Shown here in pieces: positions 2,823-31,888 of a stretch of 35,701 nt of DNA. A program made the translations under genes and the position numbers. A model generated the notes under the pieces. That model had not been told where the DNA came from. It worked only from the letters and a program-made list of their open reading frames with translations, and ran no database searches. The stretch is from Bacteroidales bacterium (lineage in GTDB: Bacteria; Bacteroidota; Bacteroidia; Bacteroidales; UBA932), in the NCBI GenBank assembly GCA_017560625.1, contig JAFZEP010000149.1:1-35701 (forward strand). Reading direction: 5' to 3'. The first letter of the stretch is position 1. Each line of letters begins with the position of its first letter.

Positions 2823-2862
2823 GAGAGTCAGTGTGGCTGAGGCCTCGCTGACTCTCTTTTTT
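2823..2862 (+). terminator. Intrinsic terminator after gpmI
   Basis: A perfect 9-bp stem (GAGAGTCAG at 2823-2831 with CTGACTCTC at 2848-2856) is followed directly by six T residues. It begins 22 nt after the gpmI stop codon. Confidence 0.88.
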
Positions 2863-2874
2863 GTAAATAATCAC

Positions 2875-2882
2875 TATATTTA
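2875..2882 (+). promoter_or_regulatory. Weak -7-like box before the CotH-domain lipoprotein
   Basis: TATATTTA matches seven of eight positions of TAnnTTTG and lies 22 nt before the preferred start at 2905, just after the gpmI terminator. No properly spaced TTG was seen. It is reported because the terminator implies a new promoter here. Confidence 0.35.
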
Positions 2883-2904
2883 CAAATTGATAAAAAATCG
2901 TCAT

Positions 2905-7409: not shown

Positions 7410-7432
7410 CTAAGCATCAACACTTTACACTA

Positions 7433-7462
7433 TTAGCCTGCATCCCCGGGGCGGCAGGCTAA
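7433..7462 (+). other. Intergenic hairpin between GH92 genes
   Basis: A 9-bp stem, TTAGCCTGC (7433-7441) with GCAGGCTAA (7454-7462), encloses a GC-rich loop. No T-run follows and no TAnnTTTG box lies between it and the next start at 7492. It is more likely an mRNA-stability or processing element within the operon than a terminator. Confidence 0.55.
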
Positions 7463-7491
7463 TCAGATAAAACACTGATAATCAACGCATT

Positions 7492-11166: not shown

Positions 11167-11178
11167 AGATTGTCATAT

Positions 11179-15078: not shown

Positions 15079-16344
15079 TTGATAAGATTACGACATATCG
15101 CTGCTGTAGTGATAGCAGCAGGTCTGGCGACAGCATGTGGCAGCTCAAGAGAATTGGGCTGCGACGTGCTTTTTAGGTCTGAGGCAACCGACACAATCCC
15201 CTACCGCATTCCAGCTTTGGCCGTCCTTGATGGCAATAAACTGCTGGCATTGGCTGACTACCGCCACTGCGGAAGTGACATAGGTTTCGGCCGAGTGGAT
15301 ATCCATGGAAGGTTTTCACGCGACGGAGGCCGCTCGTGGGGAGAGCCTTTTACGCTTATTGAAGGAACAGGTGTCTCAGGTGCAGTTGACTGCGGATTCG
15401 GAGATGCGGCAATTGTTGCAGACTGGGAAAGCGATGAGGTGCTTGTCATGCTCGTGTGCGGACACACAATCTATTGGCATGAAAGCACCACCCGCCAGAA
15501 TCCAAACCGCATAGCTATGCTCCGCAGCAGCGACAACGGCAAGACCTGGAGCAATTGGCAGGAGGCTACTGAGTCAATCTACTCTCTATTTGACGAGAGC
15601 GCATACGGCTGCGTGCAGAGCTGCTTCATCGGTTCAGGCAAAATCTGCCAGAGCCGTAAAATCAAAGTCGGCAGCCACTACCGTATATATGCTGCACTTT
15701 GTGCCCGTCCAAACGGCAACAGAGTGATCTACAGCGATGATTTCGGCAAGACATGGAACATTCTTGGAACTGCGGATGATCTTCCTGCGGTGAACGGTGA
15801 TGAGCCTAAATGTGCAGAGCTTCCGGATGGCAGCGTAGTTCTCAGCTCCCGCGCTTGGGGCGGTCGTTATTTCAATATATTCAGATATTCTGACGAGGAG
15901 CATGATGGCACTGCAGGTAAATGGTCCACAGGTCAATGGGGTGAAGCTGCAGGCTCGGGCCGTGGCAACAATGGCTGCGCTGCGATTTCCAATTCATGCA
16001 ACGGCGAAATCCTCATTATTCCAGCCGTGCGCACCTCAGACCGTGAGAAGGTCTACCTAGCCCTTCAGTCAGTCCCACTCGGACCTGACCGCACAAATGT
16101 GGGCATATATTATAAGGAATTGCCGGCTGAAATCTCTAGCCTCACACCGTCCGAATTCGCAGCCGACTGGCAGCCCGCCTACCAGATCAGCACCCTCCCG
16201 TCAGCATACTCCACAATGGTGAGCCTGCGCAACGGCAACATCGCATTCTACTACGAAGAATGCGACAACTGCTGCCCCGGCGGCTTCAACATGGTCTACA
16301 AAGAACTCCCGCTGGAGATTATTACGGAAGGACAGTATCAATAG
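15079..16344 (+). CDS. Sialidase (GH33-type exo-alpha-sialidase) lipoprotein
   Basis: Predicted to release terminal sialic acid from glycans at the cell surface or in the periplasm. Its 421 residues form a single six-bladed propeller with no obvious carbohydrate-binding module. The signal peptide ends in ATAC (C20). DTIPYRIPAL holds the catalytic-triad arginine (R43) in the Y/FRIP motif. DYRHCGSDIGFGRVDI follows in the region of the catalytic Asp. Asp-boxes SRDGGRSW, SSDNGKTW and SDDFGKTW are clear. The start is a TTG; no in-frame ATG exists before the signal peptide, so a rare start or an upstream ATG lost by mutation or error is possible. It lies 139 nt after the ROK kinase, in the same orientation. 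Other six-bladed families (for example GH93) are less likely given YRIP plus three Asp-boxes. Confidence 0.9.
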   Translation: MIRLRHIAAVVIAAGLATACGSSRELGCDVLFRSEATDTIPYRIPALAVLDGNKLLALADYRHCGSDIGFGRVDIHGRFSRDGGRSWGEPFTLIEGTGVSGAVDCGFGDAAIVADWESDEVLVMLVCGHTIYWHESTTRQNPNRIAMLRSSDNGKTWSNWQEATESIYSLFDESAYGCVQSCFIGSGKICQSRKIKVGSHYRIYAALCARPNGNRVIYSDDFGKTWNILGTADDLPAVNGDEPKCAELPDGSVVLSSRAWGGRYFNIFRYSDEEHDGTAGKWSTGQWGEAAGSGRGNNGCAAISNSCNGEILIIPAVRTSDREKVYLALQSVPLGPDRTNVGIYYKELPAEISSLTPSEFAADWQPAYQISTLPSAYSTMVSLRNGNIAFYYEECDNCCPGGFNMVYKELPLEIITEGQYQ

Positions 16345-16380
16345 CTCAAAGTCAAATCATTGACCCACAGAACATTAATA

Positions 16381-16414
16381 AAACTGCTTGCTGCATAAGT
16401 GCAGCAAGCAGTTT
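16381..16414. terminator. Long perfect hairpin between convergent genes, likely bidirectional terminator
   Basis: A perfect 15-bp stem, AAACTGCTTGCTGCA (16381-16395) with TGCAGCAAGCAGTTT (16400-16414), closes a 4-nt loop. It sits in the 125-nt gap between the sialidase and the M3 peptidase gene. T-rich sequence follows on the minus strand; on the plus strand the arm itself ends in TTT. Confidence 0.75.
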
Positions 16415-16422
16415 GCGTAAAC

Positions 16423-16452
16423 AGCTGTATTACAATCAATTAAAATACAGCT
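16423..16452 (-). terminator. Second hairpin after the M3 peptidase gene
   Basis: A 9-bp stem, AGCTGTATT (16423-16431) with AATACAGCT (16444-16452), lies 17 nt past the peptidase stop on the minus strand. The stem is AT-rich with a 12-nt loop and no clear T-run, so it probably assists the neighbouring stronger hairpin. Confidence 0.4.
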
Positions 16453-16469
16453 ATTATATTCAGTCTCTA

Positions 16470-18479
16470 TTAGAGGCCGCGAGCGCGGGTGAGGGCTGCA
16501 GGATCTGGGTCGGCGCCACGGAAGCGGCGGTAGAGCTCCATTGGCTCGTCGCTGCCACCCTTCTCTAGGATGTTCTGGCGGAATGACTGAGCTGTCTCAG
16601 GGTCGAAGATGCCCTTCTCCATGAAAAGCTCGAATGCATCCTTGTCGAGTACCTCTGCCCAGAGGTAGCTGTAGTAACCTGCACTGTATCCGCCGCTGAA
16701 GATGTGAGCGAAGTAAGTAGTGCGGTAGCGTGGGATGATCTCGCCGATGAGGCCCATCTCAGCACATGCCTGTGCCTCGAATGCTTCAACGTCAGCAGGA
16801 ACCTCAGTGATCATATGCCACTTGAGGTCAAGGATAGCTGCAGCAGCGAGCTCTGTTGTCATGAAGCCCTGGTTGAAGTTGCCGGCAGCCTCGATCTTAG
16901 CTACGAGCTCTGCAGGGATGATCTCACCTGTCTCGAAGTGACGTGCATATGTTGCGAGAACATCTGGCTGGAACGCCCAGTTCTCCATGATCTGCGATGG
17001 GAGCTCAACGAAGTCACGTGCCACAGATGTACCTGCAACACTCTTGTAAGTACACTGGCTCAACAAACCGTGAAGTGCATGTCCATACTCGTGGAAGAGA
17101 GTCTCCACCTGGTCGAGAGTGAGGAGTGATGGTTTGCCGTCAACTGGCTTAGCGAAGTTACCAACGTTAACGATAACCGGACGGATCTCCTTGCCGTCAA
17201 CAATCTCCTGGTTCACGAAGTTGTTCATCCATGCACCACCTCTCTTTGTCTCACGTGGGAAGTAGTCAGTAAGGATGACACCGATGAGAGAACCGTCTGC
17301 GTCCATAACCTTGAAGCCCTCAACCTCAGCGTGGTATGTAGGGATGCCCTCAAGCTTCTCATACTGAAGACCCCAAAGCTTTGTTGTAAGGTCGAATACA
17401 CCCTGACGTACGTTCTCCATCTGGAAATATGGCTTAGTCTGCTCCTCGTCAAGTGCATATTTAGCCATACGCACCTTCTCTGTGTAGTATGCCCAGTCCC
17501 AAGGCTCGATCTTTGAGCCTGCTGGAAGAAGGCCTGCAGCGATGTCTGCATCCATCACAGCCTGCATGTCTACAATCTCCTCCTTTGCCTTCTTGACAGC
17601 CGGAGCGATGATGCCTGCGAGGAATGTGTCTACAGTCTCAGGTGAGCCTGCCATCTTGTCGTGGAGAATCATCTGGGCAGGGTTCTCATAACCAAGAAGG
17701 TTAGCCTTCTCGATACGGAGAGCCATCATCTTCATGATGAGGTCCTTGGTGTCGTTCTCGTTGCCGTTGTTGCCACGTGAAGCATATGCCTTGAACATTC
17801 TCTCACGGAGTGCGCGGTCGTCAGTCTTTGCCATTGCTCCGCCATACTCAGAGATAGCAACACCGAACTCTGCAGCGAATGCATTATTTTCAGCAAGAAG
17901 TCTGTTGCCGAATGTGTTGGAGAGAGATGAAAGCTCCATGTTGATCTCGCGCATGCGTGCCTGCTCAGCCTCGCCAAGTGCGATACCATTGTTTACAAAA
18001 CCATTGTAGAGCTTCTTGAGAGCCATCTTCTGCTCCTGATTGAGACCAAGTTCATCGATCTTGTTATAGAGCACCTCAACCTTAGAGAAGAACTCAGGGT
18101 TCATTGAGATGTTATCTGAGTGGACAGAAAGCTTAGGAAGCACCTGCTCTACAATTGCATTGAGAGACTCTGTCGCGTCAGTCTCAGCGAGGTTGAAGAG
18201 CACGCCTACAACGCGGTCGAGGATAGCGCCTGACTTCTCGTAAGCTGCCACTACATTCTCGAATGTAGGCTCCTCTGTGTTTGCGATGATAGCCTTGATC
18301 TCAGCCTCCTGCTGAGCGATACCAGCCTCTACTGCAGGGAGATAGTGGCACTCCTCAACGACAGTGAAGTCTGGAATTCCGTAAGGGGTGTTCCACTCTG
18401 AAAGGAATGGATTCTCTGAAGCATTCTTACATGAAACCATAGTCATGACTGCTGCTAATGTGATTAATGTCTTTTTCAT
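16470..18479 (-). CDS. M3 family metallopeptidase lipoprotein (Dcp/oligopeptidase A-like)
   Basis: A zinc oligopeptidase, most like peptidyl-dipeptidase Dcp, of 669 residues (E. coli Dcp is about 680). The zinc site FHEYGHALHG places H463, E464 and H467, and the third ligand E492 (FVELPSQIMENW) sits 29 residues after H463, as in M3 enzymes. The C-terminus ends FRGADPDPAALTRARGL, like Dcp. Unlike cytoplasmic relatives it has a lipoprotein signal (MVSC, C17), so it acts in the periplasm or at a membrane face. It starts 1 nt after the stop of the DUF5689 gene, which implies translational coupling and membership of the nuclease/TonB-receptor operon. It may degrade short peptides released with nucleoprotein, but it could also be a passenger. 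Confidence 0.95.
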   Translation of the reverse strand: MKKTLITLAAVMTMVSCKNASENPFLSEWNTPYGIPDFTVVEECHYLPAVEAGIAQQEAEIKAIIANTEEPTFENVVAAYEKSGAILDRVVGVLFNLAETDATESLNAIVEQVLPKLSVHSDNISMNPEFFSKVEVLYNKIDELGLNQEQKMALKKLYNGFVNNGIALGEAEQARMREINMELSSLSNTFGNRLLAENNAFAAEFGVAISEYGGAMAKTDDRALRERMFKAYASRGNNGNENDTKDLIMKMMALRIEKANLLGYENPAQMILHDKMAGSPETVDTFLAGIIAPAVKKAKEEIVDMQAVMDADIAAGLLPAGSKIEPWDWAYYTEKVRMAKYALDEEQTKPYFQMENVRQGVFDLTTKLWGLQYEKLEGIPTYHAEVEGFKVMDADGSLIGVILTDYFPRETKRGGAWMNNFVNQEIVDGKEIRPVIVNVGNFAKPVDGKPSLLTLDQVETLFHEYGHALHGLLSQCTYKSVAGTSVARDFVELPSQIMENWAFQPDVLATYARHFETGEIIPAELVAKIEAAGNFNQGFMTTELAAAAILDLKWHMITEVPADVEAFEAQACAEMGLIGEIIPRYRTTYFAHIFSGGYSAGYYSYLWAEVLDKDAFELFMEKGIFDPETAQSFRQNILEKGGSDEPMELYRRFRGADPDPAALTRARGL

Positions 18480-18480
18480 T

Positions 18481-19557
18481 TTAATACCAATTTGTTCCGT
18501 CTGATTTCTTTACGCCATCGAGGTCGATGAGGGTGAACTGAGCCTCACCCTTGTACTTTGTAAGGATACCTGTGAATGACACAGTTGCAGTTCCGTCGAG
18601 AACCTCAGCAGGGATCTTTGTGTCTGCAAAACGTGCATATCCGCTTGAGCGCACCTGCACGCTCTTTGATCCCATTGTGAAATACTGGCTGACAGAATAT
18701 GCCATCGAACCGATGTTGTATGTACCGTCGGCATTTCTGAAGGCTCCCACAGTCTTACCGGCAACCTCTACGTTGTCGAAGATGCCTGAATTCAGGTACT
18801 CCTTCCATTTTGTCTCAGAGCAAGCCCAAGTATTCACCCAAAGATCTTTGTCGGCTGGCTGGTTCCAGTCCTCATCGATGAAGATACCGTTGTTTGTGTA
18901 ATCCTTTCTGTCTCCATTAGGATCAACGTATGCAAGGATGAAGATCTGATTCAGTTTGCCATAGTTGTCGACATAGCCATATTTAAGGTCCTTGATGGTA
19001 ACCAGACGGCCCATATTCACATCCTTGAGAAGGTCAGCCTCGCTTACCACTACAGGCTGAACAGGATCGTCATAAGCACCCTTGAACACATGATTGTCGA
19101 TGATGTATGCATGCTCCATGTAGCTTGTCTCATATTCGTTGGTAGGATCCTCATAACCGAGGTTGATCATACCGTTGTAGTCACCGATAGTGAGGTCGGT
19201 ACAGTCTACATAAAGCCACTGGCCGAGCTTGTACTCGTTATAAAGACCATTCTTTCCGATCTTCACCTCGATTCCGGCAGTCGCATCCTGGATGTAAAGG
19301 CTCTTGTAGAGGTTGCCTACCTGGTCTGATGTTGTCACCTGACCTTTGATCACACATCTCTTGTTGACCTTTACCGGCTTGCCGTTGTACATCGCCTTGA
19401 GCTCGGCAATTGTCGTGAACTTGTTGCCGAAGTCCTCGTCGGTGTAGATATACTGCTGCTCCGGATCCGGATACTTGCCTGTGAACACAGGCTGGAACTC
19501 CTCACAGCCTGCAAGGAGTGTCGCCGCAGCTAATATTGCTATAAAAAATCTTTTCAT
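18481..19557 (-). CDS. DUF5689-type OB-fold lipoprotein
   Basis: A probable surface lipoprotein of 358 residues. The ATG at 19557 gives a perfect lipobox LAGC (C18). The next residues, EE, fit the acidic surface-export signal of Bacteroidota lipoproteins. An in-frame start eight codons upstream adds only a hydrophilic tail and is rejected. The N-terminal OB-type domain at about residues 45-150 shows CVIKGQVTTSDQ, SLYIQDATAGIEVKIGKNG and LTIGDYNGMINLG, typical of DUF5689. A second beta-domain fills the rest and ends FTGILTKYKGEAQFTLIDL, itself OB-like. OB folds of this group resemble those in secreted nucleases. It is placed directly after the TonB receptor, so a substrate-binding partner role is my inference. 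Confidence 0.8.
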   Translation of the reverse strand: MKRFFIAILAAATLLAGCEEFQPVFTGKYPDPEQQYIYTDEDFGNKFTTIAELKAMYNGKPVKVNKRCVIKGQVTTSDQVGNLYKSLYIQDATAGIEVKIGKNGLYNEYKLGQWLYVDCTDLTIGDYNGMINLGYEDPTNEYETSYMEHAYIIDNHVFKGAYDDPVQPVVVSEADLLKDVNMGRLVTIKDLKYGYVDNYGKLNQIFILAYVDPNGDRKDYTNNGIFIDEDWNQPADKDLWVNTWACSETKWKEYLNSGIFDNVEVAGKTVGAFRNADGTYNIGSMAYSVSQYFTMGSKSVQVRSSGYARFADTKIPAEVLDGTATVSFTGILTKYKGEAQFTLIDLDGVKKSDGTNWY

Positions 19558-19570
19558 ATTATCTGTATTT

Positions 19571-19725
19571 GAGATTGCCACGGGCTTTCAGCCCTCGCAA
19601 TGACGTATAACAAATCTCACAACATCAAGTGACCGATTCACAACATCAAGTGACTGATTCATACACATCAAGTGAGATAATGAATCTCTCACGTCATTGC
19701 GAGGAGCGCAGCGACGTGGCAATCT
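19571..19725. repeat. REP-like composite inverted repeat downstream of the TonB receptor gene
   Basis: The left arm 19571-19606 and right arm 19691-19725 are inverted copies. They share agattgccacg at the outer end and ctcgcaatgacgt at the inner end, with an 11-nt variable centre. Each arm is itself a small hairpin bounded by ATTGC/GCAAT; the left centre is GGGCT-ttc-AGCCC. The right arm is identical over 35 nt to 22761-22795. No transposase is present. Confidence 0.85.
19618..19675. repeat. Three tandem 21-22 bp repeats with core CATCAAGTGA
   Basis: The core CATCAAGTGA begins at 19623, 19644 and 19666, spacings of 21 and 22 bp (two helical turns). Copies 1 and 2 match over almost the whole 21-nt unit (CACAACATCAAGTGAcyGATT); copy 3 has diverged. 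The array lies in the centre of the inverted repeat 19571-19725, between the TonB receptor and DUF5689 genes. Confidence 0.8.
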
Positions 19726-19728
19726 TCC

Positions 19729-22686
19729 TTAGAATCTGAAATAAAGGTTCAACATGTAGTTAAAGCCCTGCATGTAGAAGTACTTGGAGTCGAAGCGGTA
19801 GTATCTCTCCATGCTCTGGCTGTCGATAAGACGAGTCTGCTCGTAACCACCTGTCTTCACAGCCTTGTTGTTTGTGATGTTCTGAAGGTTGAGCGAGAAA
19901 CCGAAGTTATACGTACGGTTGATGTACCAAGACTTACCGATGCTTGCATTGAGGAGGAATACAGGAGCGAACTTCTCCTGAGCCGCCATGTACTCGATCT
20001 CAGTAGGAGTGATGATCTTATCCGGACCAGCCACTGCAAGGTCAGTTCTATAAAGCGGGTTCATATCGAGATATGAGTTCGCAAAGTACTGAGCATGAAG
20101 TTCAAAGAACCAATATGAATTTGTTCTGTAGTTAAGGCCAAGGTCAGCTGCAAGCTGCGGAGTAGAAGGCACATAGTGCTTCTGGTTCTTCTCCACGATG
20201 TAGTTGCCGTCAACGTCTACCTCATAGATAGCGACGCCATCCTCCACATACTTCTTGTAGACCGGATGACTTGCCCAGTAAGGCACGATCTCGTTCTCGA
20301 CGATCACCTCAGCACTGTTGTCCACAGTCTGAGTCATACGTGGATTCGATGTGTAGATGTACTCACCCCAGGCGAGAGCACCCTCAACTGAGAGACCCTG
20401 CACGAAAAGAGGCACCTTGAATCCGAGTTCGACACCCATATGACGCTGATCGATGCCGCTCATAGCGAAGTTTGTGAACGAGTTCTGCGTGTCGTCATAG
20501 AAGCTCATCATGTCTGTCTGATCCATGATCTTTGTCCAGAAACCGCTCACGCGAACGTTGTAGCCGTTGTTGCTGTACTGATAGTTGAGGTCAGTAGAGA
20601 TAGTCTTCATTGTCTCGAGGTTCGGTACGAGAGAGTTTCTGGTACGAGGAGAGATGAACGACTGAGAGAATGTAGGCGCATCATTGTAGTATGCTGCATT
20701 CGCATAGAATCTATGACCGCCTACGATATGGTACTGAAGTCCGAGCTTACCTGAATATGTGAAGAAGTCGGCCACAGCAGACTTGCCAAGCGAAGTGATA
20801 GGCACAAGCTCGCCGTTCACTGTCTCATAAGTAGTGAGGCTCTTGCCGTCTACGATGAACTCCGAACCGTCAGGGTTCAGACCAGGGAAGAGGCCCTTTC
20901 TCACAAGACCCTCTCTCCAGAACTTCTCATAACCTGCCTGAAGAGCGAGGTTTGCCTTGAATGCACCGAGATCAAGGTCGCCGTTCACCCATGCAGACGC
21001 CTTGCGCACGTTTGCATAGTAGTCATATCCGTACTTGTCACCCTTGTGAAGAGTCTGGGCAGCGCCATGAGCAAGATAGTAGTCAAGGTCGTTCTGCACC
21101 ATTGCAGGGTTGGAAGCGAAATCACGCTCTGCGAATGAGTCGATGTTGATGTAATAATCACCACCAAGAAGGTCGTCAAGCACCTTGAAGTACTCAGTCT
21201 TGTTCCATCTGTAGTTGAGACCTCCGGTAAGTGTGAAATACTTAGCAGGATTCCACTTCACGTTAGCACCGAAGTTGAGGTCGTTCTGATCCACACGGCG
21301 CTCCTCAACGATATACTTCGAGCGGCGGAGTCCGTCTGCATCGTAGTTGTTGTAGTTGACATTGTAGAGACGGTCCCAGTTGAGATGAGTGTACTCAGGA
21401 TAATTCTGAGTCCATGCATCGTATGCCCAGGCAGCCTTCTCCTCGTTCAATCTGTCATAGTCAGGATTGTCCATGTAGTAGTAGCTAGGAAGGTTGCGGT
21501 AGTAATCCGGACGCGGATCCGCTGCGTCATACCAGTCCATAGCTGTGTAGCCGTTCTTACCTGTTCTCCAGACTACTGTAGCAGCTGCCTCAAGGTTGTC
21601 GGTTGGAGTAGCAGTATACTTGAGGATAGTCACAGGCTCGAATGTCTTGCGGACACGTGCATTACGCACCTTGCTGTTCTGATAACCCCAGTTGCTGTTG
21701 TACATGCTGTCGCCTGTGAGGTCGTAAACTTCCTGAGTAGAAGCGTTCTGCGCGCCTCTCTGACCAGGAGCCGCAAAAGTCACGAGGCCGATCTTGTGGA
21801 TGTCGCCGAACTTCTTCTCGACACCTGCATAATATGCGAAGTTGCGGTAGTATACGCCCTTGATCCAGTCGTTGCCGCCAAGACGTGCAGACACGTTGAA
21901 CGCATATGACCAGCCGTTGTCAAGCTCACCGGAAGCATATGTCGCCATGAGGCGGAGACGGTAGAGTGCGCTGTTTGTAAGAGCGCTGAAACGCCATCCT
22001 GTGCGCACGCTTGAAGGCATTGCATGGATGTTTGTAACACCGTTGTAGCCTCCGAAGCCGAACTCGGACACCTCGTTACCTACGGTTGTCTCCTTCGCTC
22101 TTGTGGCCTCGTTAAGACCACTCCAGAGAGAGAACGGAGAGTAACCTGTGAGTGCGTCGTTCATAGGAATACCGCTGAGGTAAACCTCCTGAGACTCACT
22201 TGTATAACCTCTGTTCTTGAAACGGATGTTGCTGAAGCCGAAGCTTGCGATGTTGGTGAACGGGTCGTTGCTTCCGAAAAGGATAGATGGAGAATCCTCG
22301 AATCCCGAATCGTCCATATCGAACTCCGCGAATGAAGTGTCGTCCACCTCAGTCACGACCTGCTCGATGACCATACCCACGAAGATAAGGTCCTTGACGT
22401 ATCCTTCGATGGTCACGTTGACGTTTGCATCAAGGAAACCCGGAGCCTTCACGACCATGTCGTACATGCCGTTAGGAAGAGCCTCGATGAGGAACTTTCC
22501 GTCGGCATCTGATGTTGCCGAAGCCACCTTGTCTCCATTCTGAGAGAGAGTCAGGGATGCGCCGGCAATCGGAGCTCTGCCGGCACGGTTGACTACCGTA
22601 CCCTTCACGCCACCCCAGTCGCCCTGAGCGAAGAGGCCTGTAGCGCAAAGCACCGCCGCGATTGTCAATAATAGTTTTTTTATCAT
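19729..22686 (-). CDS. TonB-dependent outer-membrane receptor
   Basis: An outer-membrane, TonB-gated transporter of 985 residues. The signal peptide ends in LFAQ (about residue 21). A carboxypeptidase-regulatory-like sandwich spans about residues 27-105 (GVKGTVVNRAGRAPIAGASL, TSDADGKFLIEALPNG). A plug domain follows at about residues 130-240, including NIRFKNRGYTSESQEVYLSG and YNGVTNIHAMPSSVRTG. A 22-strand-type barrel ends LYFRF, with the terminal Phe used by the barrel-assembly machinery. No SusD homologue is adjacent, so this is not a standard SusC/SusD pair. It lies in an operon with two secreted nucleases and two OB-fold lipoproteins, so nucleic-acid fragments or their products are the likely cargo (inference). 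REP-like repeats flank it on both sides. Confidence 0.95.
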   Translation of the reverse strand: MIKKLLLTIAAVLCATGLFAQGDWGGVKGTVVNRAGRAPIAGASLTLSQNGDKVASATSDADGKFLIEALPNGMYDMVVKAPGFLDANVNVTIEGYVKDLIFVGMVIEQVVTEVDDTSFAEFDMDDSGFEDSPSILFGSNDPFTNIASFGFSNIRFKNRGYTSESQEVYLSGIPMNDALTGYSPFSLWSGLNEATRAKETTVGNEVSEFGFGGYNGVTNIHAMPSSVRTGWRFSALTNSALYRLRLMATYASGELDNGWSYAFNVSARLGGNDWIKGVYYRNFAYYAGVEKKFGDIHKIGLVTFAAPGQRGAQNASTQEVYDLTGDSMYNSNWGYQNSKVRNARVRKTFEPVTILKYTATPTDNLEAAATVVWRTGKNGYTAMDWYDAADPRPDYYRNLPSYYYMDNPDYDRLNEEKAAWAYDAWTQNYPEYTHLNWDRLYNVNYNNYDADGLRRSKYIVEERRVDQNDLNFGANVKWNPAKYFTLTGGLNYRWNKTEYFKVLDDLLGGDYYINIDSFAERDFASNPAMVQNDLDYYLAHGAAQTLHKGDKYGYDYYANVRKASAWVNGDLDLGAFKANLALQAGYEKFWREGLVRKGLFPGLNPDGSEFIVDGKSLTTYETVNGELVPITSLGKSAVADFFTYSGKLGLQYHIVGGHRFYANAAYYNDAPTFSQSFISPRTRNSLVPNLETMKTISTDLNYQYSNNGYNVRVSGFWTKIMDQTDMMSFYDDTQNSFTNFAMSGIDQRHMGVELGFKVPLFVQGLSVEGALAWGEYIYTSNPRMTQTVDNSAEVIVENEIVPYWASHPVYKKYVEDGVAIYEVDVDGNYIVEKNQKHYVPSTPQLAADLGLNYRTNSYWFFELHAQYFANSYLDMNPLYRTDLAVAGPDKIITPTEIEYMAAQEKFAPVFLLNASIGKSWYINRTYNFGFSLNLQNITNNKAVKTGGYEQTRLIDSQSMERYYRFDSKYFYMQGFNYMLNLYFRF

Positions 22687-22701
22687 AATTTTTCTATTGT
22701 G

Positions 22702-22796
22702 GAGATTGCCACGTCATCCTTCGGACTCCTCGCAATGACGTAAATAACATCACATTGAGCACGTCATTGCGAGGAGCGCAGCGACGTGGCAATCTC
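22702..22796. repeat. REP-like composite inverted repeat upstream of the TonB receptor gene
   Basis: The left arm 22702-22741 is the inverse of right arm 22761-22796. They share gagattgccacgtc (14 nt) and ctcctcgcaatgacgt (16 nt) around a variable centre of 10 or 6 nt, with a 19-nt spacer. On RNA the whole element would fold into one long hairpin within the operon mRNA. The right arm is identical over 35 nt to the copy at 19691-19725. Confidence 0.88.
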
Positions 22797-22801
22797 TTTC
22801 G

Positions 22802-23881
22802 CTATTTGGTAATCACTATATAAGTCGGATAGTGGTCGCTATAGCCGCCGATGAAGGCTCCGTTGGAGAATGTTCTGAACGGTGTGCCCTTATACTGTCC
22901 CTGCTGGTTGGTCAGGAATTTGGCGTTGTAGACTCTTCCGTAGTATCCCTTCTTGTGAAGCTGAAGAAGGCCGAATGTGCCTTCCTGCGGATGCGTGAGG
23001 GCGTTGTTGACCAGAAGAAGGTCATATATGCTCCACACTCCCTGGTATGCAAGCGAGCCGAAGCCTGCCTTGAGCATAGATATGAAAGGAGAGAAGAACT
23101 CTGTGTCGGTGACGTCCTCCTTGAACTCCTGCCCGTGGAGATACACAGCCATCGAAGCATCAGTAGGATTGTCGTTCATGTCACCCATGCACACGATCTT
23201 GATGCCTGGATATTTCTCCTGCATCATCATGGCGTGGTTGTACATGATCTCACCGCCGCGGTCACGGAGCTGGTTGCCGCCCTTCTTTCCGCCGGAACGT
23301 GACGGAAGGTGCGCCACATAGATAGCGAAATGCTCGCCGTCGATAAGTCCATGAACCATGAGGATATCACGTGTCCTGAAATAGTCACGCTCCTCCTGCG
23401 ACTGGATCCAGTCGATAGTGCTGCCCTCGAATGTGAACGGAATAGACTCGCTGTCGAGGAATGTGAACACCTCAGGCTTATAAAGAAGCGCCACATCCAC
23501 ACCACGACGGTCCGGACCGTCATAATGCACGATCTGATAGTTGGCCTCAGCGATCTGAGGCTCCATCACAAGATCCTCAAGAACAAGACGGTTCTCGATC
23601 TCAGAGACTCCGAGGAGAGCGTGCCAAGCGCCGTTCTCCTCTTTCATAGAGTGAATGACCTTAGCCATGTTCTGAAGCTTCTTCTGGTATTTGGCCTCAG
23701 TCCACTTGTTCTTTCCCTCAGGAAGGAACTCCTCGTCATTCTTTGCAGGATCGTCATATATGTCAAACAGATTCTCAAGGTTGTAGAATCCGATCACATA
23801 GTTCTTTGAACCCTTTTTCTGGGCATCAGCTCCGGAGCAGAAAAGCACCAGAGCCGCCAATACTATAAGTATTTTCTTCAT
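22802..23881 (-). CDS. Secreted EEP-family endonuclease/exonuclease/phosphatase
   Basis: A secreted Mg2+-dependent phosphodiesterase of the endonuclease/exonuclease/phosphatase superfamily, 359 residues. The ATG at 23881 yields a type I signal peptide cut near GADA (residue 20); an in-frame start seven codons upstream runs into the preceding gene and is rejected. Active-site motifs in order are GFYNLENLFD (N35), GVSEIEN (E94), DRRGVDVALLY, HLPSRSGG (H191), GDMNDNPTD (D234, N236) and YSDHYP (D349, H350). The set is complete, so the enzyme should be active. Substrate could be DNA, RNA or a phospho-ester. It sits 11 nt after the NUC-type endonuclease gene, which argues for nucleic-acid degradation. 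A 115-nt gap with a long hairpin separates it from the TonB receptor gene. Confidence 0.92.
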   Translation of the reverse strand: MKKILIVLAALVLFCSGADAQKKGSKNYVIGFYNLENLFDIYDDPAKNDEEFLPEGKNKWTEAKYQKKLQNMAKVIHSMKEENGAWHALLGVSEIENRLVLEDLVMEPQIAEANYQIVHYDGPDRRGVDVALLYKPEVFTFLDSESIPFTFEGSTIDWIQSQEERDYFRTRDILMVHGLIDGEHFAIYVAHLPSRSGGKKGGNQLRDRGGEIMYNHAMMMQEKYPGIKIVCMGDMNDNPTDASMAVYLHGQEFKEDVTDTEFFSPFISMLKAGFGSLAYQGVWSIYDLLLVNNALTHPQEGTFGLLQLHKKGYYGRVYNAKFLTNQQGQYKGTPFRTFSNGAFIGGYSDHYPTYIVITK

Positions 23882-23892
23882 ATTGATTGTTT

Positions 23893-25077
23893 TTACCACC
23901 AAAGATCAGCTGTCGTCGGATCTGTGGCCTCGATCTTTGCAGCCTTGTCCTCTCCGATCTTCGCAGGAAGATTTACAAAGAAATCAAGTCCTGTGATCTC
24001 CTCAAGCTGATCGATCGACATCGCATGCTGCTTGCCAACATTTGTCTCCGAATAAGCTCTGTGCTCAAAGTAGAATCCGATTGCATTCCATGCTCCGAGA
24101 GTAGAAGACTTGCTGTACTTAAGGACAGCCTTGAAGTATGCATCAGGCACAGTCACATTGTTGCCGTACGAGTCTTTCTCGATCTTGCTTGACGGGCTCA
24201 CCATACATCCGGTCACAACATATGTCGTATCTGACGCGTTGGCATAGCCTCTCACCTTGTCTTCAAGTTTCGCCCAGATCTTCTGGTTGAGAGCAGACAG
24301 CTGAGGTGTCATGTTGGTTCCGTAATATGTCTGCGCATTAGCCTCATAGCAGCACTGACGGTCAGCAGACGGAAGCTGATGGCCTCTGTCATAAGAGCCC
24401 GCATATCCTCCAAATGGAGCAGCAGAATCATTGCCAAGAAGCGGATCCATTTCCCATGCCTCAGTTCTTCCTGCATTGCCGTTTGTATAGAGTTTGCAGA
24501 GCGGATATGCCACCCAGAGGGCTACACGATCCTTCTGGCTCCAGCCGAAAGAGTAGTTACGGTAGTTCTTGCCGTTGAAATCGAAGCTGTGAGTATAGTA
24601 TCCGAGCGAAGGATTGTCCATTGACGGAAGCTCCATCCACTCGCAATTCTTGAGATCCGAGCTGCCGCCCTGTGACGGTTCCTCCTTATCAGGCTCATCA
24701 TCTGGACGGTATTCTCCGGCAAACTGAGTCAATGTGCATATCGCATTCTTCGAGCCGCTGACGAGAACAATCTTGATGGTTCTTTCTGCCTCAGTCGAGT
24801 TGGTCTTCCACGAAAGCCTTACATTGCTCTTGTTGCCGGTGCCGGTAGTGACGCTCAGAGACGCCCAGTCTGACTCAGCATCAGACACGATATTGAGCTT
24901 CCAGTCGCCGCTGCACTTGACATCGACAAACTGCGATCCCGACTCAGAAGACACCTTCGGGTTCTTCAACGAAACCGAAAGAGTCTCGGCAGGCGCACTC
25001 ACACCGGAAGGGTCACATGAGATGGCCATCAGTGCACAGAGCGCCGCCAAGATAAATGTTAAAGTAAATTTCTTCAT
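23893..25077 (-). CDS. DNA/RNA non-specific endonuclease (NUC family) lipoprotein with BACON-like domain
   Basis: A predicted surface or periplasmic sugar-non-specific nuclease, 394 residues. The signal peptide ends in AISC (C21). A BACON-like beta domain occupies about residues 30-122 (GSQFVDVKCSGDWKLNI ... ICTLTQFAG), followed by an acidic linker. The NUC domain spans about residues 140-385. It carries the signature YDRGHQLPSAD with catalytic H233, then TNMTPQLSALNQKIWAKLE, in which N264 is the expected Mg2+ ligand and the Glu completes the motif. The domain is complete. It starts 3 nt after the stop of the BACON/OB-fold lipoprotein gene. Such enzymes cut single- and double-stranded DNA and RNA, so this is the likely first step of extracellular nucleic-acid breakdown. 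Confidence 0.93.
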   Translation of the reverse strand: MKKFTLTFILAALCALMAISCDPSGVSAPAETLSVSLKNPKVSSESGSQFVDVKCSGDWKLNIVSDAESDWASLSVTTGTGNKSNVRLSWKTNSTEAERTIKIVLVSGSKNAICTLTQFAGEYRPDDEPDKEEPSQGGSSDLKNCEWMELPSMDNPSLGYYTHSFDFNGKNYRNYSFGWSQKDRVALWVAYPLCKLYTNGNAGRTEAWEMDPLLGNDSAAPFGGYAGSYDRGHQLPSADRQCCYEANAQTYYGTNMTPQLSALNQKIWAKLEDKVRGYANASDTTYVVTGCMVSPSSKIEKDSYGNNVTVPDAYFKAVLKYSKSSTLGAWNAIGFYFEHRAYSETNVGKQHAMSIDQLEEITGLDFFVNLPAKIGEDKAAKIEATDPTTADLWW

Positions 25078-25080
25078 GTA

Positions 25081-27249
25081 TTACTCTGCAATAGCCTTGA
25101 TACCGATGAAGATCACTCGAGGCTGTGAAGAATTGGTAGTCTCCACCTTCACATCTGCTGCATCAGCAGAAGGCATTTCAATCTCATAGTAATCCGAACC
25201 AGCTAGTGTAATTGTGTAAGGAGGGTTTCCTGTAGCACCAGCATTAGGAGCCGGAGTCATTGTTGTGAGAGTAGTACCATTGATAGAGAACTTAATCTCT
25301 GACGAACTCTTGTTGGTCCATGCCACACAATAGAAGCCAAGCTTCTTTGTACCAGCAGGAACGTGGAGAGTTGCGTCACCTACAACAGAGCTTGTTCCAA
25401 GCTTGAGCATATTGTCTACAGCCACGCCGTTTACAGTACCTGTCTGAGCATTGCTGCCTGATGTGTTGTCATATGCCTTGTTGCCGAGAGTCCATGTGAT
25501 ATTACAGTCGAACTGGCCATCGCCACCTGCTGGAGGAGTAGGAGTCTCACCACCCTCATCTCCACCTGATGGAGGTGTCACCTCGATGCCGTCGAAACGA
25601 GCACCGGTGAGTCCTGCATAGTCAGAACCCTGAGCGAAGATGAGCTGCATGTTGCCGCTGTTGATAGACGAGATACCCTTGATCACGCCTGAACCCTGAG
25701 GAACTGCAGTAGCGCCGAATGTAGAATACTTAGAAGAGAACACCACGAATGTGTTGCCTGAAGCGTCCTCCATTGTGATGCTAGTATGTGCACCGCCCAT
25801 AACGAATGTCTTCGACATATCGTCTGCGATCACCTGAACGCCCTCAAGAGCGATATACTGACCCTCGTACTTGTTTGCGAGGAAGTCAGCCATTGTCACA
25901 GTCTTAGGAGTAACTGTGTTGCCTGAAGACACCTTAGCAATCTTTGAAAGTGCAAGACCGCTGATCTGAACTGCACCGTTGTACTCGCCTACAGTCACGC
26001 CACCAAGGCTGATCTGCACCTTATCGCCGAATGCGAAGCTGTGGTTCTCAGCAAGGTAGAACTGGAGAGCTGCAGTAGCGTCCTGAACATACATACCCTT
26101 CTTTGAAGTGAGGTTGTTGAGGTCCATGTTAGAGATTACAACACCCTCGATTACTGCATCCGAAGGAAGAGCTGAGCCATAAGCAAGCACCTCTGCAATT
26201 GTCATTGTTGCATTGCCGACTGGAGGAGTAGGAGTGTCACCGCCTGTGTTGCCACCTGCATTGCCTCCTGTTGTACCGTCGATAGCTACACCTGTTGAGA
26301 AGTCGATGGCCTGACCAGCCTCGCCAACCTCGAGGAGAACGTCATCGATGCTGTATGAGCTTGCATATGTAGAAACGAAAGCAACGCTGAGCTGAGCCGT
26401 TCCAGCAGGCACTGTGAAGTTGCAAGATGCAAGGTTCCAGTCACCATTTGTATCAGCACCCTCTGGGAATGCCATTGAAAGCTCAACCCACTTCTGAGCG
26501 TCAGCACTTACGTATGTCTTGAAGTGCTCGAAAGAGAATGTGTTGTCAGAGTCTGACTGATTATATCTCTGGCCACCGAATGAAAGAGCGTAGTCTGTCT
26601 TTGTGCCGTCAAGAGTGATCTTGTTGATCTTGAGGATTGAAGTACCTGTTCCGAAGAAGATCTTGTTTGATCCGGAACCAGCATAGTGAGAGTAACCGGA
26701 ACCGTCGTTTGAAGCCTTGCCTGATGTTCTTACAGACATCTTTCCGCCGAATTCGTATTCCACAGTTGAAGCACCTGAACCCTGCTTGTTGTCCCAGATG
26801 TTGTAATTTGAGTCAAGGTATGGCCAACCGTCGTTATTCTGCGCCTTCTCCACGTCGAAGTCGTTCTTATACATGACAAGAGCAGCTGCAGATCCGCCAG
26901 GACCTGCCTGATTTACTGTCAGATACTTCTTCTTGAGACCGATTGTGAACACGAGGTCAGCAGTACGGTCGAGTCCCTTGTTCTCAAGAACAGAGACTGT
27001 AACTGTCTGAGGATTTGCAGAAGCCGCGCCTGACTCAGGGGATACAACCACCCAGTCTGCGTCTGTCTGCACCTTCCAGTCGCGTGTAGCAGACAATGTA
27101 AGGTCCTTATCGCCACCCTCAGCGTCGAAAGTCATCTCGCTTTCACTGATTGTGATGTCCGGAGTGCCGAGATTCTGCTCAGCAGGCTCACATGCTGCAA
27201 ACATAGCAACAGCAGAGCACACCCCGAGAAATAAATTTCTAAGTTTCAT
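25081..27249 (-). CDS. Multidomain lipoprotein: BACON, beta-sandwich, DUF5689-like OB region
   Basis: A probable surface lipoprotein of 722 residues and first gene of the nuclease/TonB-receptor operon. The lipobox is FAAC (C20), followed by the acidic residue E. Regions are BACON at about 30-115 (GDKDLTLSATRDWKVQTDAD), a jelly-roll-like sandwich at 120-312 similar to choice-of-anchor or cleaved-adhesin modules, and a Gly/Thr/Pro linker at 325-345. OB-type DUF5689-like sequence follows at 348-555 (GVVISNMDLNNL, GMYVQDATAALQFYL, VTVGEYNGAVQISG). After a second PTPPAGG linker comes a C-terminal beta domain at 577-722. No catalytic motif is visible. It could capture substrate for the nucleases and receptor, with its OB domains the natural candidates for nucleic-acid binding (inference). 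Confidence 0.85.
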   Translation of the reverse strand: MKLRNLFLGVCSAVAMFAACEPAEQNLGTPDITISESEMTFDAEGGDKDLTLSATRDWKVQTDADWVVVSPESGAASANPQTVTVSVLENKGLDRTADLVFTIGLKKKYLTVNQAGPGGSAAALVMYKNDFDVEKAQNNDGWPYLDSNYNIWDNKQGSGASTVEYEFGGKMSVRTSGKASNDGSGYSHYAGSGSNKIFFGTGTSILKINKITLDGTKTDYALSFGGQRYNQSDSDNTFSFEHFKTYVSADAQKWVELSMAFPEGADTNGDWNLASCNFTVPAGTAQLSVAFVSTYASSYSIDDVLLEVGEAGQAIDFSTGVAIDGTTGGNAGGNTGGDTPTPPVGNATMTIAEVLAYGSALPSDAVIEGVVISNMDLNNLTSKKGMYVQDATAALQFYLAENHSFAFGDKVQISLGGVTVGEYNGAVQISGLALSKIAKVSSGNTVTPKTVTMADFLANKYEGQYIALEGVQVIADDMSKTFVMGGAHTSITMEDASGNTFVVFSSKYSTFGATAVPQGSGVIKGISSINSGNMQLIFAQGSDYAGLTGARFDGIEVTPPSGGDEGGETPTPPAGGDGQFDCNITWTLGNKAYDNTSGSNAQTGTVNGVAVDNMLKLGTSSVVGDATLHVPAGTKKLGFYCVAWTNKSSSEIKFSINGTTLTTMTPAPNAGATGNPPYTITLAGSDYYEIEMPSADAADVKVETTNSSQPRVIFIGIKAIAE

Positions 27250-27297
27250 GCTTTAATGGTATTAAAATATTTGTTTTGTCTTGTAAGTCTTAATCAG

Positions 27298-27328
27298 CAA
27301 AGATAACTATCGTGCCACACTTTTGCAA
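27298..27328 (-). promoter_or_regulatory. Consensus promoter of the nuclease/TonB-receptor operon
   Basis: On the minus strand TTG (27328-27326) is followed after exactly 20 nt by TATCTTTG (27305-27298), a full match to TTG-N20-TAnnTTTG. The first start codon is 48 nt downstream. No comparable box was seen before the later genes 18481-25077, which supports one long transcript. Confidence 0.75.
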
Positions 27329-27343: not shown

Positions 27344-27370
27344 AAAAAAGCGACCCCCGAAGGAGTCGCT
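27344..27370 (-). terminator. Intrinsic terminator with UUCG tetraloop
   Basis: On the minus strand a 9-bp stem AGCGACTCC/GGGGTCGCT closes the stable TTCG tetraloop and ends in six T residues. It lies 10 nt after the stop of the gene at 27380 and cleanly separates that operon from the next. Confidence 0.9.
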
Positions 27371-27379
27371 AAACTTTTT

Positions 27380-28939
27380 CTAATACTCCGAAATCGGAGA
27401 AGTATTTCCTTTTGACAAGGCCGGGATTTCCAGCTTGAACATCTCGCCCGCGTTCTCGTTCGCATCAAGCGGGATAGCATAAAGCCTGTAGTCGCATCCC
27501 CATTCCAGCTGCACTTCCGTAAGGGATTCAGCGTAGAAGTTATATTCTCCCAGTAGAGCATCGTTCAGAAGCAGAGCACGCACATCTTCATCGGTAGCAC
27601 CCTCCCGCTCAAGCACATCCACAGGATAAATCGTGTAGATCGCATCTGTCGCCGATCCTCCGAAAGAGAATTTCAGACGCACCACAGCCCATCCTGCAAA
27701 ATCAGAATATGAAGCCGATGAAGCAGCTAATGCATCTCCGTCAAAATATTTCAATATCGAAGCTGAAACTGAAGCGTCTGTCGCTCCTTCAGCAGGAGCA
27801 TCGAACCAGCAGATAGCCACCTCAGAGGCATATTCGCCTGCCGAATCCACGCACACTGCGCATGCATAATGCCTCATTCCGGGCTCCAGCGAGAAGCTTC
27901 CTGTAGCAGGACCTCTCTGGGCATAGTATTTTGCGAACTCAGCTCTATCCTCACAATCACCCACTAGGATAGCCTTCTTTATCTCCTTATCAATCAACTT
28001 CTTGACACCATCAGCATTCGGGCCTCCATTTCTTTCCAATTCAGCCTCGCCAGCCACGATTGCAAAATAAGCCACACTGGCATCAGAAGGCTTGAATGTA
28101 ACACTTGCGCTACGTGCAGTCAAGCTGTTGTATGAAATCTCAAAAGTGACATCCGTCGGATCGTTCGGAGTCTGAGTGCGGAACTTCTTGGTAAAGAGAG
28201 GAGTCGTAAGTCCGCCGTCATATCCGAAGACTATGACCATATACTCTGTATCAGGATCCAGCTTGTCATCAAAAGAATGCACCATCTCTCCGCTGTTGGT
28301 ATGCAGAGGAAAGAACGGCTTGTAGTTCTTCATAAGGAACTCCTGAAGCTCGTCCATGGTCATGTCTTTGTATATATCTTCCGGGAATTCAAGCCACACA
28401 TAGTCGTCATCCGTCGTTGGTGTGATGAACAGCATAGCAGAAGTTGCAGTGATCTGATCCAGTTCTATCTCAAACGACATCTCCACCTGCTCCAGTGCTG
28501 GAGTTGTCTCAACCAGCATCTCCACATCGGAAGTCACGGCACCAAACTCGTCTGTATGACATGCAAACACAACAAAGCGCTGCTCCGGTTTGAGGCCTGT
28601 CACATCCCTGATATACTCCCCTTTCTTCATAAGGTCTGCAATAGCCAGATCGCTGTTTTCCAATATCGTAGTCTCAATGAAATTGGTCGCAACAGTCTGC
28701 ATGTCGTCAAAGTCTCCGAAAGTCTTCAGATAATCTTCCGTAGCGACGCCACAGAAATATGGAGAGGTCATATCATCCGGAGTTACCTTCACCTTGCAAT
28801 GACTCGAATGCATGTCCATGATCTCAATCTTGAATCCTTTACCGGAAGCACCTGGCTTTCCCTCCTGAGGATCCTTCTGATCGCAAGCCGCCATGACCAC
28901 GACAGCCCAAAGGAATATAAAATAGCGTAAGTTCTTCAT
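27380..28939 (-). CDS. Fibronectin-like repeat lipoprotein (paralogue of 29817-31790)
   Basis: A predicted surface lipoprotein of 519 residues. The ATG at 28939 gives lipobox MAAC (C19) followed by DQKD, an acidic surface-export type signal. The rest forms three to four beta modules of about 100-130 residues. Each starts like FEIELDQITATSAMLFITP or FEISYNSLTARSASVTFKP and ends in FRTQTP or similar, the pattern of fibronectin type III-like modules. The last module contains ILKYFDGDALAASSASYSDF, similar to YYDGTELAELDPTQFS in the paralogue two genes upstream. No enzyme motif is seen. It is last in a three-gene operon, 4 nt after the Omp28-like gene. It may bind protein or glycan; function unknown. 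Confidence 0.8.
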   Translation of the reverse strand: MKNLRYFIFLWAVVVMAACDQKDPQEGKPGASGKGFKIEIMDMHSSHCKVKVTPDDMTSPYFCGVATEDYLKTFGDFDDMQTVATNFIETTILENSDLAIADLMKKGEYIRDVTGLKPEQRFVVFACHTDEFGAVTSDVEMLVETTPALEQVEMSFEIELDQITATSAMLFITPTTDDDYVWLEFPEDIYKDMTMDELQEFLMKNYKPFFPLHTNSGEMVHSFDDKLDPDTEYMVIVFGYDGGLTTPLFTKKFRTQTPNDPTDVTFEISYNSLTARSASVTFKPSDASVAYFAIVAGEAELERNGGPNADGVKKLIDKEIKKAILVGDCEDRAEFAKYYAQRGPATGSFSLEPGMRHYACAVCVDSAGEYASEVAICWFDAPAEGATDASVSASILKYFDGDALAASSASYSDFAGWAVVRLKFSFGGSATDAIYTIYPVDVLEREGATDEDVRALLLNDALLGEYNFYAESLTEVQLEWGCDYRLYAIPLDANENAGEMFKLEIPALSKGNTSPISEY

Positions 28940-28943
28940 AATC

Positions 28944-29807
28944 TTATTTATAATCATATGTCACAGTGCTTCCGACAGGACACAGGATACAGTTTGCCAA
29001 GTCATAGCGTCCGTCCGAGCCAGCGGCATTGACAAGCACAAGCACCTTGCAGTTTTCAGCCTGCCATGTCTCATCAAGAGACAGAGTGAAAGTCTTTTCC
29101 GCCGTCTGGCCGGCCTGAAGTTCTCCAATCTTTTCTCCGTATATACGCAAATTGAGAGTATTTCCAGCCATTGATCTGACTGCATTGCCATGGGTGTTCA
29201 TCCAGTCCTCTGTCGCGCCTTCCTGTTTGCCTCGGATGCCATCTTCCAGCACCCACACAGCAACACGGTACTGTCCTGGCGTCGCAGCCTTGATCTGCAC
29301 ATTCACACCGACAGTCTTGTCTGACAGGCCTGCAGCCGCAGCAATTCCCACGTCAGCGGCTTCCTTGTGAAGTCTGTCAATGACACCGGTTATTGTACTG
29401 ACTGCCAATGAGGTTCCTGTATTTACTCTTGTCAGATTGAAGGTCAGTTCCGGATAATATCCATCGCAGAATGCCTGAGAAAGATTGGCTGCCGCCTGAG
29501 AATATGCCGGATCGCCCTCCTGATTATATGAATGTGCCGCAACATGCTGATATTTATCGGCATAATGTTCCATCTGAGACAGCTCCTTGAGCGAAGTCAT
29601 CAGGTTCGGACAGTTCGAGCAATATGTTCCGGTGTGCTGAAGGAGAAGAATCCTATGATTGAACTCCGTGTTTTCAGGCTGCGGATCTGCCGGGAGCTCA
29701 GGGATTGCAACATCGCCTGATGGTTCATCGACAGGCGTGTCTTTTTCCGCGCATGCAGCAAAAACAAGAGCTGCACAACATATAGAAATGAGGCTGTTTA
29801 TCTTCAT
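28944..29807 (-). CDS. Omp28-related lipoprotein with CxxC motif
   Basis: An outer-membrane-associated lipoprotein of 287 residues, similar to the Omp28 family first known from Porphyromonas gingivalis. The signal peptide ends in FAAC (C19). Residues 45-145 look thioredoxin-like: ILLLQHTGTYCSNCPN carries C63 and C66 where thioredoxins have their redox pair, and AAHSYNQEGDPAYSQAA follows. The C-terminal part is a beta domain (VGVNVQIKAATPGQYRVAVW, KTFTLSLDETWQAENCKVLV). It sits between two fibronectin-like paralogues with gaps of 9 and 4 nt, so the three are probably made together. It might handle disulphides or simply be a structural adhesin; redox activity is not shown. Confidence 0.85.
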   Translation of the reverse strand: MKINSLISICCAALVFAACAEKDTPVDEPSGDVAIPELPADPQPENTEFNHRILLLQHTGTYCSNCPNLMTSLKELSQMEHYADKYQHVAAHSYNQEGDPAYSQAAANLSQAFCDGYYPELTFNLTRVNTGTSLAVSTITGVIDRLHKEAADVGIAAAAGLSDKTVGVNVQIKAATPGQYRVAVWVLEDGIRGKQEGATEDWMNTHGNAVRSMAGNTLNLRIYGEKIGELQAGQTAEKTFTLSLDETWQAENCKVLVLVNAAGSDGRYDLANCILCPVGSTVTYDYK

Positions 29808-29816
29808 ATATCGATA

Positions 29817-31790: not shown

Positions 31791-31813
31791 TTCCTTGGGA
31801 TCATTATACTCTA

Positions 31814-31821
31814 CAAATATA
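31814..31821 (-). promoter_or_regulatory. Putative -7 box (TATATTTG) for the fibronectin-like/Omp28 operon
   Basis: On the minus strand TATATTTG matches TAnnTTTG exactly, 23 nt before the ATG at 31790 and just downstream of the previous gene's terminator. A -33 TTG at standard spacing is not evident. Confidence 0.5.
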
Positions 31822-31839
31822 GACAATAATAATCTCAAT

Positions 31840-31867
31840 AAAAACAGGCGACCCGAAGGCCGCCTGT
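31840..31867 (-). terminator. Intrinsic terminator with UUCG tetraloop after the 1138-residue lipoprotein gene
   Basis: On the minus strand the stem ACAGGCGGCC/GGTCGCCTGT (one G-U pair) closes a TTCG tetraloop and runs into TTTTT. It begins 22 nt after the stop codon at 31889. Confidence 0.9.
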
Positions 31868-31888
31868 CAATATCATATGGAATATGGA

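Follow-up and report, generated by a model that had tools for sequence, protein, structure and literature searches.

What does a TonB-dependent receptor carry when its gene shares an operon with those of two nucleases and two DUF5689 lipoproteins? The locus that raises this question lies on a contig of a Bacteroidales bacterium (assembly GCA_017560625.1, contig JAFZEP010000149.1), whose whole stretch of 35,701 nucleotides we call the window. Six minus-strand genes, running from 27249 to 16470, encode in the 5'->3' order of the operon a lipoprotein with BACON and DUF5689 domains, a DNA/RNA non-specific endonuclease (NUC), an endonuclease/exonuclease/phosphatase-type nuclease (EEP), the receptor, a DUF5689 lipoprotein and an M3 peptidase. 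The cluster likely imports DNA, because the receptor and one lipoprotein are related to a gene pair required for transformation by outside DNA in Riemerella anatipestifer, a pathogen of ducks, and we consider it probable that the operon specifies a TonB-dependent DNA importer with nucleases of its own, a relative of that pair. The original prediction had proposed nucleic-acid import around this receptor on the logic of a polysaccharide utilisation locus; the proposal holds in kind, but its closest precedent is the R. anatipestifer pair, not a polysaccharide locus.

According to the excerpted text of the one paper, among those searched, that names DUF5689, which used a transposon screen to study natural transformation in R. 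anatipestifer, RA0C_RS04915 is a predicted outer-membrane protein with PF13620 and RA0C_RS04920 a DUF5689/DUF5017 protein; markerless deletion of either lowered transformation from ~5e-5 to below detection (~4e-10), and the authors put forward, as speculation, a DNA-binding role for RS04920 and a DNA-passing role for RS04915 (PMC8459023). The same excerpt gives homologues of RS04915 as Flavobacteriaceae only. Mutants in tonBA and tonBB are impaired in transformation, tonBA without an iron-uptake defect, in the excerpt of a separate report (PMC8383284). When the receptor of an R. anatipestifer-type locus (L103) was used as query, 64 titled loci were returned, the best being that of R. anatipestifer CCUG25054 (L123; 93% identical), in which the order is ComEC, carboxyltransferase, EEP, receptor and DUF5689. 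Pfam confirms the gene set from ComEC to DUF5689 in L103, where ComEC precedes the receptor by four genes, a distance that would agree with the published RA0C locus tags if their numbering runs in steps of five. Downstream of the L103 pair, the genes at 15494–19900 resemble a CRISPR-Cas set by eye. The window shares with this precedent a PF13620 outer-membrane protein followed by a DUF5689 lipoprotein, an adjoining EEP gene and a receptor of the same tree group. It differs in that the receptors are ~30% identical, that the R. anatipestifer EEP gene is divergent, with ComEC four genes off, whereas EEP and NUC are codirectional in the window, that a second DUF5689 lipoprotein leads the window unit, and that the window partner lacks the DUF5017-like part.

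The window receptor (985 aa; 19729–22686, minus strand) was assigned from PF13620/PF13715 and from homology to the R. anatipestifer receptor, while its TonB_dep_Rec_b-barrel match falls just below the Pfam cut-off. It aligns over its full length with the L103 receptor at 29% identity (347 bits), and its predicted structure places an N-terminal plug within a β-barrel, with low confidence in the linker (109–140) where the TonB box would lie. When solved structures were searched by sequence with the receptor profile, matches were confined to the N-terminal domain. In a tree of 76 rows, which took in 12 of the 64 titled loci and excluded frames of <700 aa, 54 receptors, those of the window and R. 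anatipestifer together, split from 22 weaker-matching paralogues with an SH-aLRT support of 100 (no bootstrap was computed). We regard this tree as a consistency test that is only partly independent, because the group labels came from BLAST score and locus. Three genomes also hold a second, more distant receptor paralogue ~5–10 kb from the main receptor (L046, 15292–17898; L047, 2661–5330; L049, 13903–16452).

Where the original prediction named a single DUF5689 protein, the operon encodes two. The one it had recognized (18481–19581, minus strand; ATG start 19557; PF18942, 1.1e-44) is the relative of RA0C_RS04920, and matches the L103 protein at 35% identity across 130 residues and a protein of another 'Bacteroidales bacterium' (P0300) at 74%; the leading BACON lipoprotein (722 aa; 25081–27249, minus strand; PF13004, 3.5e-11; lipobox-like C20) also has the domain (PF18942, 1.6e-33). 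A sequence search found no solved relative of DUF5689. The model of the 18481–19581 protein is predicted to contain an OB-fold, its fold matches resting on residues 36–172 and whole-protein matches beyond these being barely tested. On this model, the DUF5689 OB-fold, a fold that by itself does not reveal function, would be a candidate nucleic-acid binder, and the BACON and DUF5689 lipoprotein is, from its domains, a candidate for a second nucleic-acid-binding surface protein. Of 14 control genomes, Bacteroides ihuae and Bacillus subtilis also gave a match in the DUF5689 family search, that of B. subtilis being, we suspect, the OB-fold nuclease YhcR.

The receptor and DUF5689 pair is conserved across the class, and EEP is a frequent neighbour. 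In a draw of 148 genomes from the phylum, 21 besides the window's own carry a strong receptor match (E <=7.7e-38) and all belong to the window's class; each has a strong DUF5689 match. In 20 of them the two genes are no more than ~1 kb apart; in G017 they lie on separate contigs. Within the order, a strong receptor (E <=3.9e-38) occurs in 78 of 158 genomes, the window's own included. Co-occurrence was assessed in the first 80 other genomes of the order in handle order, representing 80 genera: strong matches to the receptor and to DUF5689 coincide in 37 and are both missing from the other 43 (Fisher p 1e-23), with thresholds set after gaps in the scores had been seen (receptor, E 2.7e-60 and next 7.1e-28; DUF5689, 3.2e-35 and next 4.4e-19). 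Nine of the 43 carry a weaker DUF5689 match (E 4.4e-19 to 1.8e-4). By their coordinates, the two genes are adjacent on one strand in 35 of the 37 genomes and on different contigs in two. The receptor is followed by DUF5689 in all 64 titled loci as well, ~600 nt apart in five Flavobacterium loci. In the family holding the titled Riemerella and Chryseobacterium records (f4), a receptor match occurs in 118 of 120 genomes. In f105 just 20 of 121 have one with E <1e-170; at E 0.001 the profile matches all 121, most across the N-terminal domain only.

The remaining genes are less constant. EEP is present in 62 of the 64 titled loci (once 6 kb off; the remaining two loci begin at a contig end). Of the 21 class-level loci, 14 have EEP next to the receptor, the other seven lacking it within the 18–19 kb examined. 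In the order it adjoins the receptor in nine of 14 loci, some of them cut by contig ends. NUC lies near the receptor in five of these 14, one from the same genus (L109), one from the same family (L110), two from f86 (L111 and L112) and one from f112 (L117); the 21 class-level loci lack it there. A lipoprotein matching the window's leading gene accompanies NUC in all five; it has BACON and DUF5689 in L110 and L117, DUF5689 only in L111 and BACON only in L109, while in L112 its BACON match is below the cut-off. In L117 both genes come after the receptor rather than before it. NUC was rejected as a general partner: PF01223 is found in 14 of 22 genomes, the window's own included, and among these adjoins the receptor in the window alone, the titled loci not having been searched. 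In four genomes (G021, G025, G057 and G130) a stand-alone PF01223 nuclease lies ~7–13 kb from ComEC, apart from the receptor. The M3 peptidase gene is near the receptor in one of the 14 loci of the order, L109, from the same genus, and is therefore not a core part. The conservation of gene order that the original prediction asked after thus extends to the receptor and DUF5689 core and often to EEP, but not to NUC or M3, and its picture of all six genes as one conserved system fails on those counts.

Both nucleases carry the active-site motifs expected by the original prediction. NUC (394 aa; 23893–25077, minus strand; PF01223, Endonuclease_NS, 6.9e-37; lipobox-like C21) has DRGH at 230–233 in a sequence alignment with Serratia nuclease (E 2.9e-17). 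It resembles the PF01223 nucleases (Serratia nuclease, EXOG and EndG) in its catalytic domain and differs from them in its lipobox and an N-terminal BACON-like domain, the match to which falls below the curated Pfam cut-off; the pneumococcal DNA-entry nuclease EndA is, we assume, of the same family. EEP (22802–23902, minus strand; ATG start 23881; PF19580, Exo_endo_phos_3, 5.8e-92 over 37–366) has a signal-peptide-like N-terminus and the motifs NLEN, EIEN, HLPS, GDMND and SDH, which we take to be metal-binding and catalytic; a sequence search found no solved relative of it. The peptidyl-dipeptidase-like lipoprotein at 16470–18479 (minus strand) matches Peptidase_M3 in Pfam.

The homology of the pair and the phenotype of its relatives are shown; that DNA is the cargo of the window pair, we infer. 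DNA would be held by the predicted OB-fold of the DUF5689 lipoproteins, and NUC and EEP would probably cut it on entry, nicking, trimming or strand-separating it at the surface or in the periplasm. TonB energy would then shift the plug, so that DNA could be drawn through the receptor barrel and either go inward as a strand by way of ComEC and DprA or be digested. The window's own genome, 74% complete, holds DprA and a ComEC domain, both near-universal families, and co-occurrence with ComEC has no power as a test of the pair, because ComEC is found in 22 of 22 genomes.

The last step is where another use of the same importer enters: DNA or RNA might be cut at the surface and the oligonucleotides imported for phosphate, nucleosides or carbon. 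The genome's own ComEC frame is short (392 aa; L191, 10470–11648, contig C74), ending at position 235 of 270 of the Competence domain, and tblastn detected no continuation. This may reflect a short variant, gene decay or an error of assembly, and feeding on DNA therefore stays a serious rival, possible though on balance doubtful. Two nucleases with export-type signals share the unit with the receptor, and in the excerpted text on Flavobacterium johnsoniae phosphate depletion raises several TonB receptors and a further two nucleases, different from those of the operon (PMC8115612). Among the receptors is Fjoh_3841, listed there with pf13620 alone, which may or may not belong to the window receptor group. 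However, pf18942, pf19580 and pf01223 do not appear in the main text of that report, and the sole endo/exonuclease/phosphatase seen in the excerpt of its table barely responds to phosphate. Nor does any of the operon's six proteins match a nucleoside or phosphate transporter family in Pfam. The need for the R. anatipestifer pair in transformation also argues against a purely nutritional role, since DNA long enough to recombine must pass. Our estimates for DNA import and for feeding overlap, because feeding would use the same importer.

Two further explanations do without DNA as the cargo. The nucleases, both with export-type signals (one a lipobox) and active-site motifs, might clear environmental or host DNA near the cell while the receptor carries something unrelated, which we think very unlikely: NUC is absent beside the pair in nine of the order's 14 loci and throughout the 21 class-level loci, and the phenotype of its relatives is transformation. 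That loss of transformation is also the only genetic evidence found for relatives, in the excerpted text of PMC8459023, and the roles named by the original prediction, feeding on DNA or dissolving it in biofilms and neutrophil traps, were not borne out as stated. One property of the window proteins speaks for such clearance and weighs against DNA import: the receptor and lipoproteins are acidic overall. We dropped charge as an argument for DNA binding because the values oppose it. Alternatively, the receptor might take up a peptide, metal or cofactor, and the loss of transformation in R. anatipestifer might be indirect. The receptor fold by itself says nothing of cargo, an M3 peptidase gene closes the operon, and a DUF1343 protein gene with no obvious DNA role was also essential in the same screen; yet EEP often adjoins the pair, the partner has a predicted OB-fold, and, of the loci examined, only those from the window's genus have M3. 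Markerless mutants of both pair genes fell below detection, while a mutant of another receptor gene, RS09840, was unchanged in transformation (PMC8459023, in excerpt). An unrelated cargo is thus unlikely, if somewhat less so than clearance of DNA.

Like the SusCD polysaccharide and PusCD phosphate loci, the operon joins a TonB receptor to surface lipoproteins and to enzymes for export in a single unit; it differs in having DUF5689 proteins and nucleases and no SusD family, which Pfam did not find among the ten minus-strand proteins scanned. With no SusD in the unit, membership of a glycan locus was rejected. The view that OB-fold/DUF5689 lipoproteins take the place of SusD gains support. Like type IV pilus/ComEC competence, the importer would pass DNA to ComEC and DprA; unlike it, a TonB receptor would serve outer-membrane passage instead of a secretin and pilus, pilus genes not having been searched for.

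The operon layout largely agrees with the original prediction. The open reading frame (ORF) listing of the window places all six codirectional ORFs where expected; gaps between them are 3, -10, 115, 147 and 1 nt with longest-ORF starts, and with ATG starts for EEP and DUF5689 the second and fourth become 11 and 171 nt by arithmetic on the same coordinates, reproducing the predicted series of 3, 11, 115, 171 and 1. Domains were called by Pfam scan, and signal peptides and lipoboxes by simple pattern and eye, without SignalP; lipobox-like cysteines occur in the M3, DUF5689, NUC and BACON-DUF5689 proteins, and the N-termini of EEP and the receptor resemble signal peptides, in line with the predicted export of all six. 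A Bacteroidetes-type promoter-like motif, TTGC-N19-TATCTTTG (27298–27328, minus strand), sits after a terminator-like hairpin of the upstream gene (27349–27370, minus strand), likely the upstream border of the operon. The predicted consensus promoter is present as a motif, but it deviates from the strict consensus, which presumably has TTTG. The pattern TTGC-N19-TANNTTTG, fitted after the site was seen, matches twice in the window against 0.31 expected, with at least two matches in 5 of 100 shuffles. Another terminator-like hairpin, of 15 pairs, lies 3' of the M3 gene (16381–16414, minus strand); such hairpins are not in excess in the operon region (5 versus 7.2 in shuffles). The two longer gaps hold, as predicted, copies of one palindromic repeat (22702–22796 between EEP and receptor; 19571–19726 between receptor and DUF5689), with four of five window near-matches at gap borders and 0.36 expected window-wide; the repeat is REP-like and built on GAGATTGCCACGTC. 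An Rfam scan gave no match at gathering score, a tRNA search found none, and an NCBIfam match among the window proteins bears the name M949_1556.

Elsewhere in the window, the plus strand carries three genes for GH92 alpha-mannosidases, one of them a fusion with GH125 (5133–13410 and 15079–16344), near a CotH-kinase gene (2833–4719), a ROK gene and a BNR sialidase-like gene. From these domains the region is likely a host-glycan trimming cluster; Pfam found no SusCD among the nine of its proteins scanned. Upstream of the operon, at 27380–35305 on the minus strand, lies a set of lipoprotein-like genes. Two of their products have no Pfam match, another belongs to the Omp28 family and has a CSNC motif, and a fourth, of 1138 aa, combines BACON with SusF_SusE.

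Our search of open-access full texts (subscription papers and preprints excluded) found no account of this operon, or of the pair in Bacteroidales. For Porphyromonas gingivalis, the excerpt of a 2024 report leaves DNA import into the periplasm unexplained and a conjugation pilus uninvolved (PMC11532111). More tentatively, and at a little short of even confidence, we propose that a pilus-free DNA uptake machine is common to Bacteroidota, consisting of a TonB-driven receptor and an OB-fold lipoprotein lid and drawing DNA across the outer membrane, of which the window would be a Bacteroidales form with an entry nuclease and a second DUF5689 lipoprotein in its operon. The receptor group and its OB-fold partner give strong matches in 37 of the 80 genera sampled from the order and supply named candidate genes. 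If the proposal is true, it suggests how Bacteroidota bring in DNA without pili, means that a TonB receptor admits a polymer vastly exceeding its usual substrates in size, and would bear on gene exchange among Bacteroidales.

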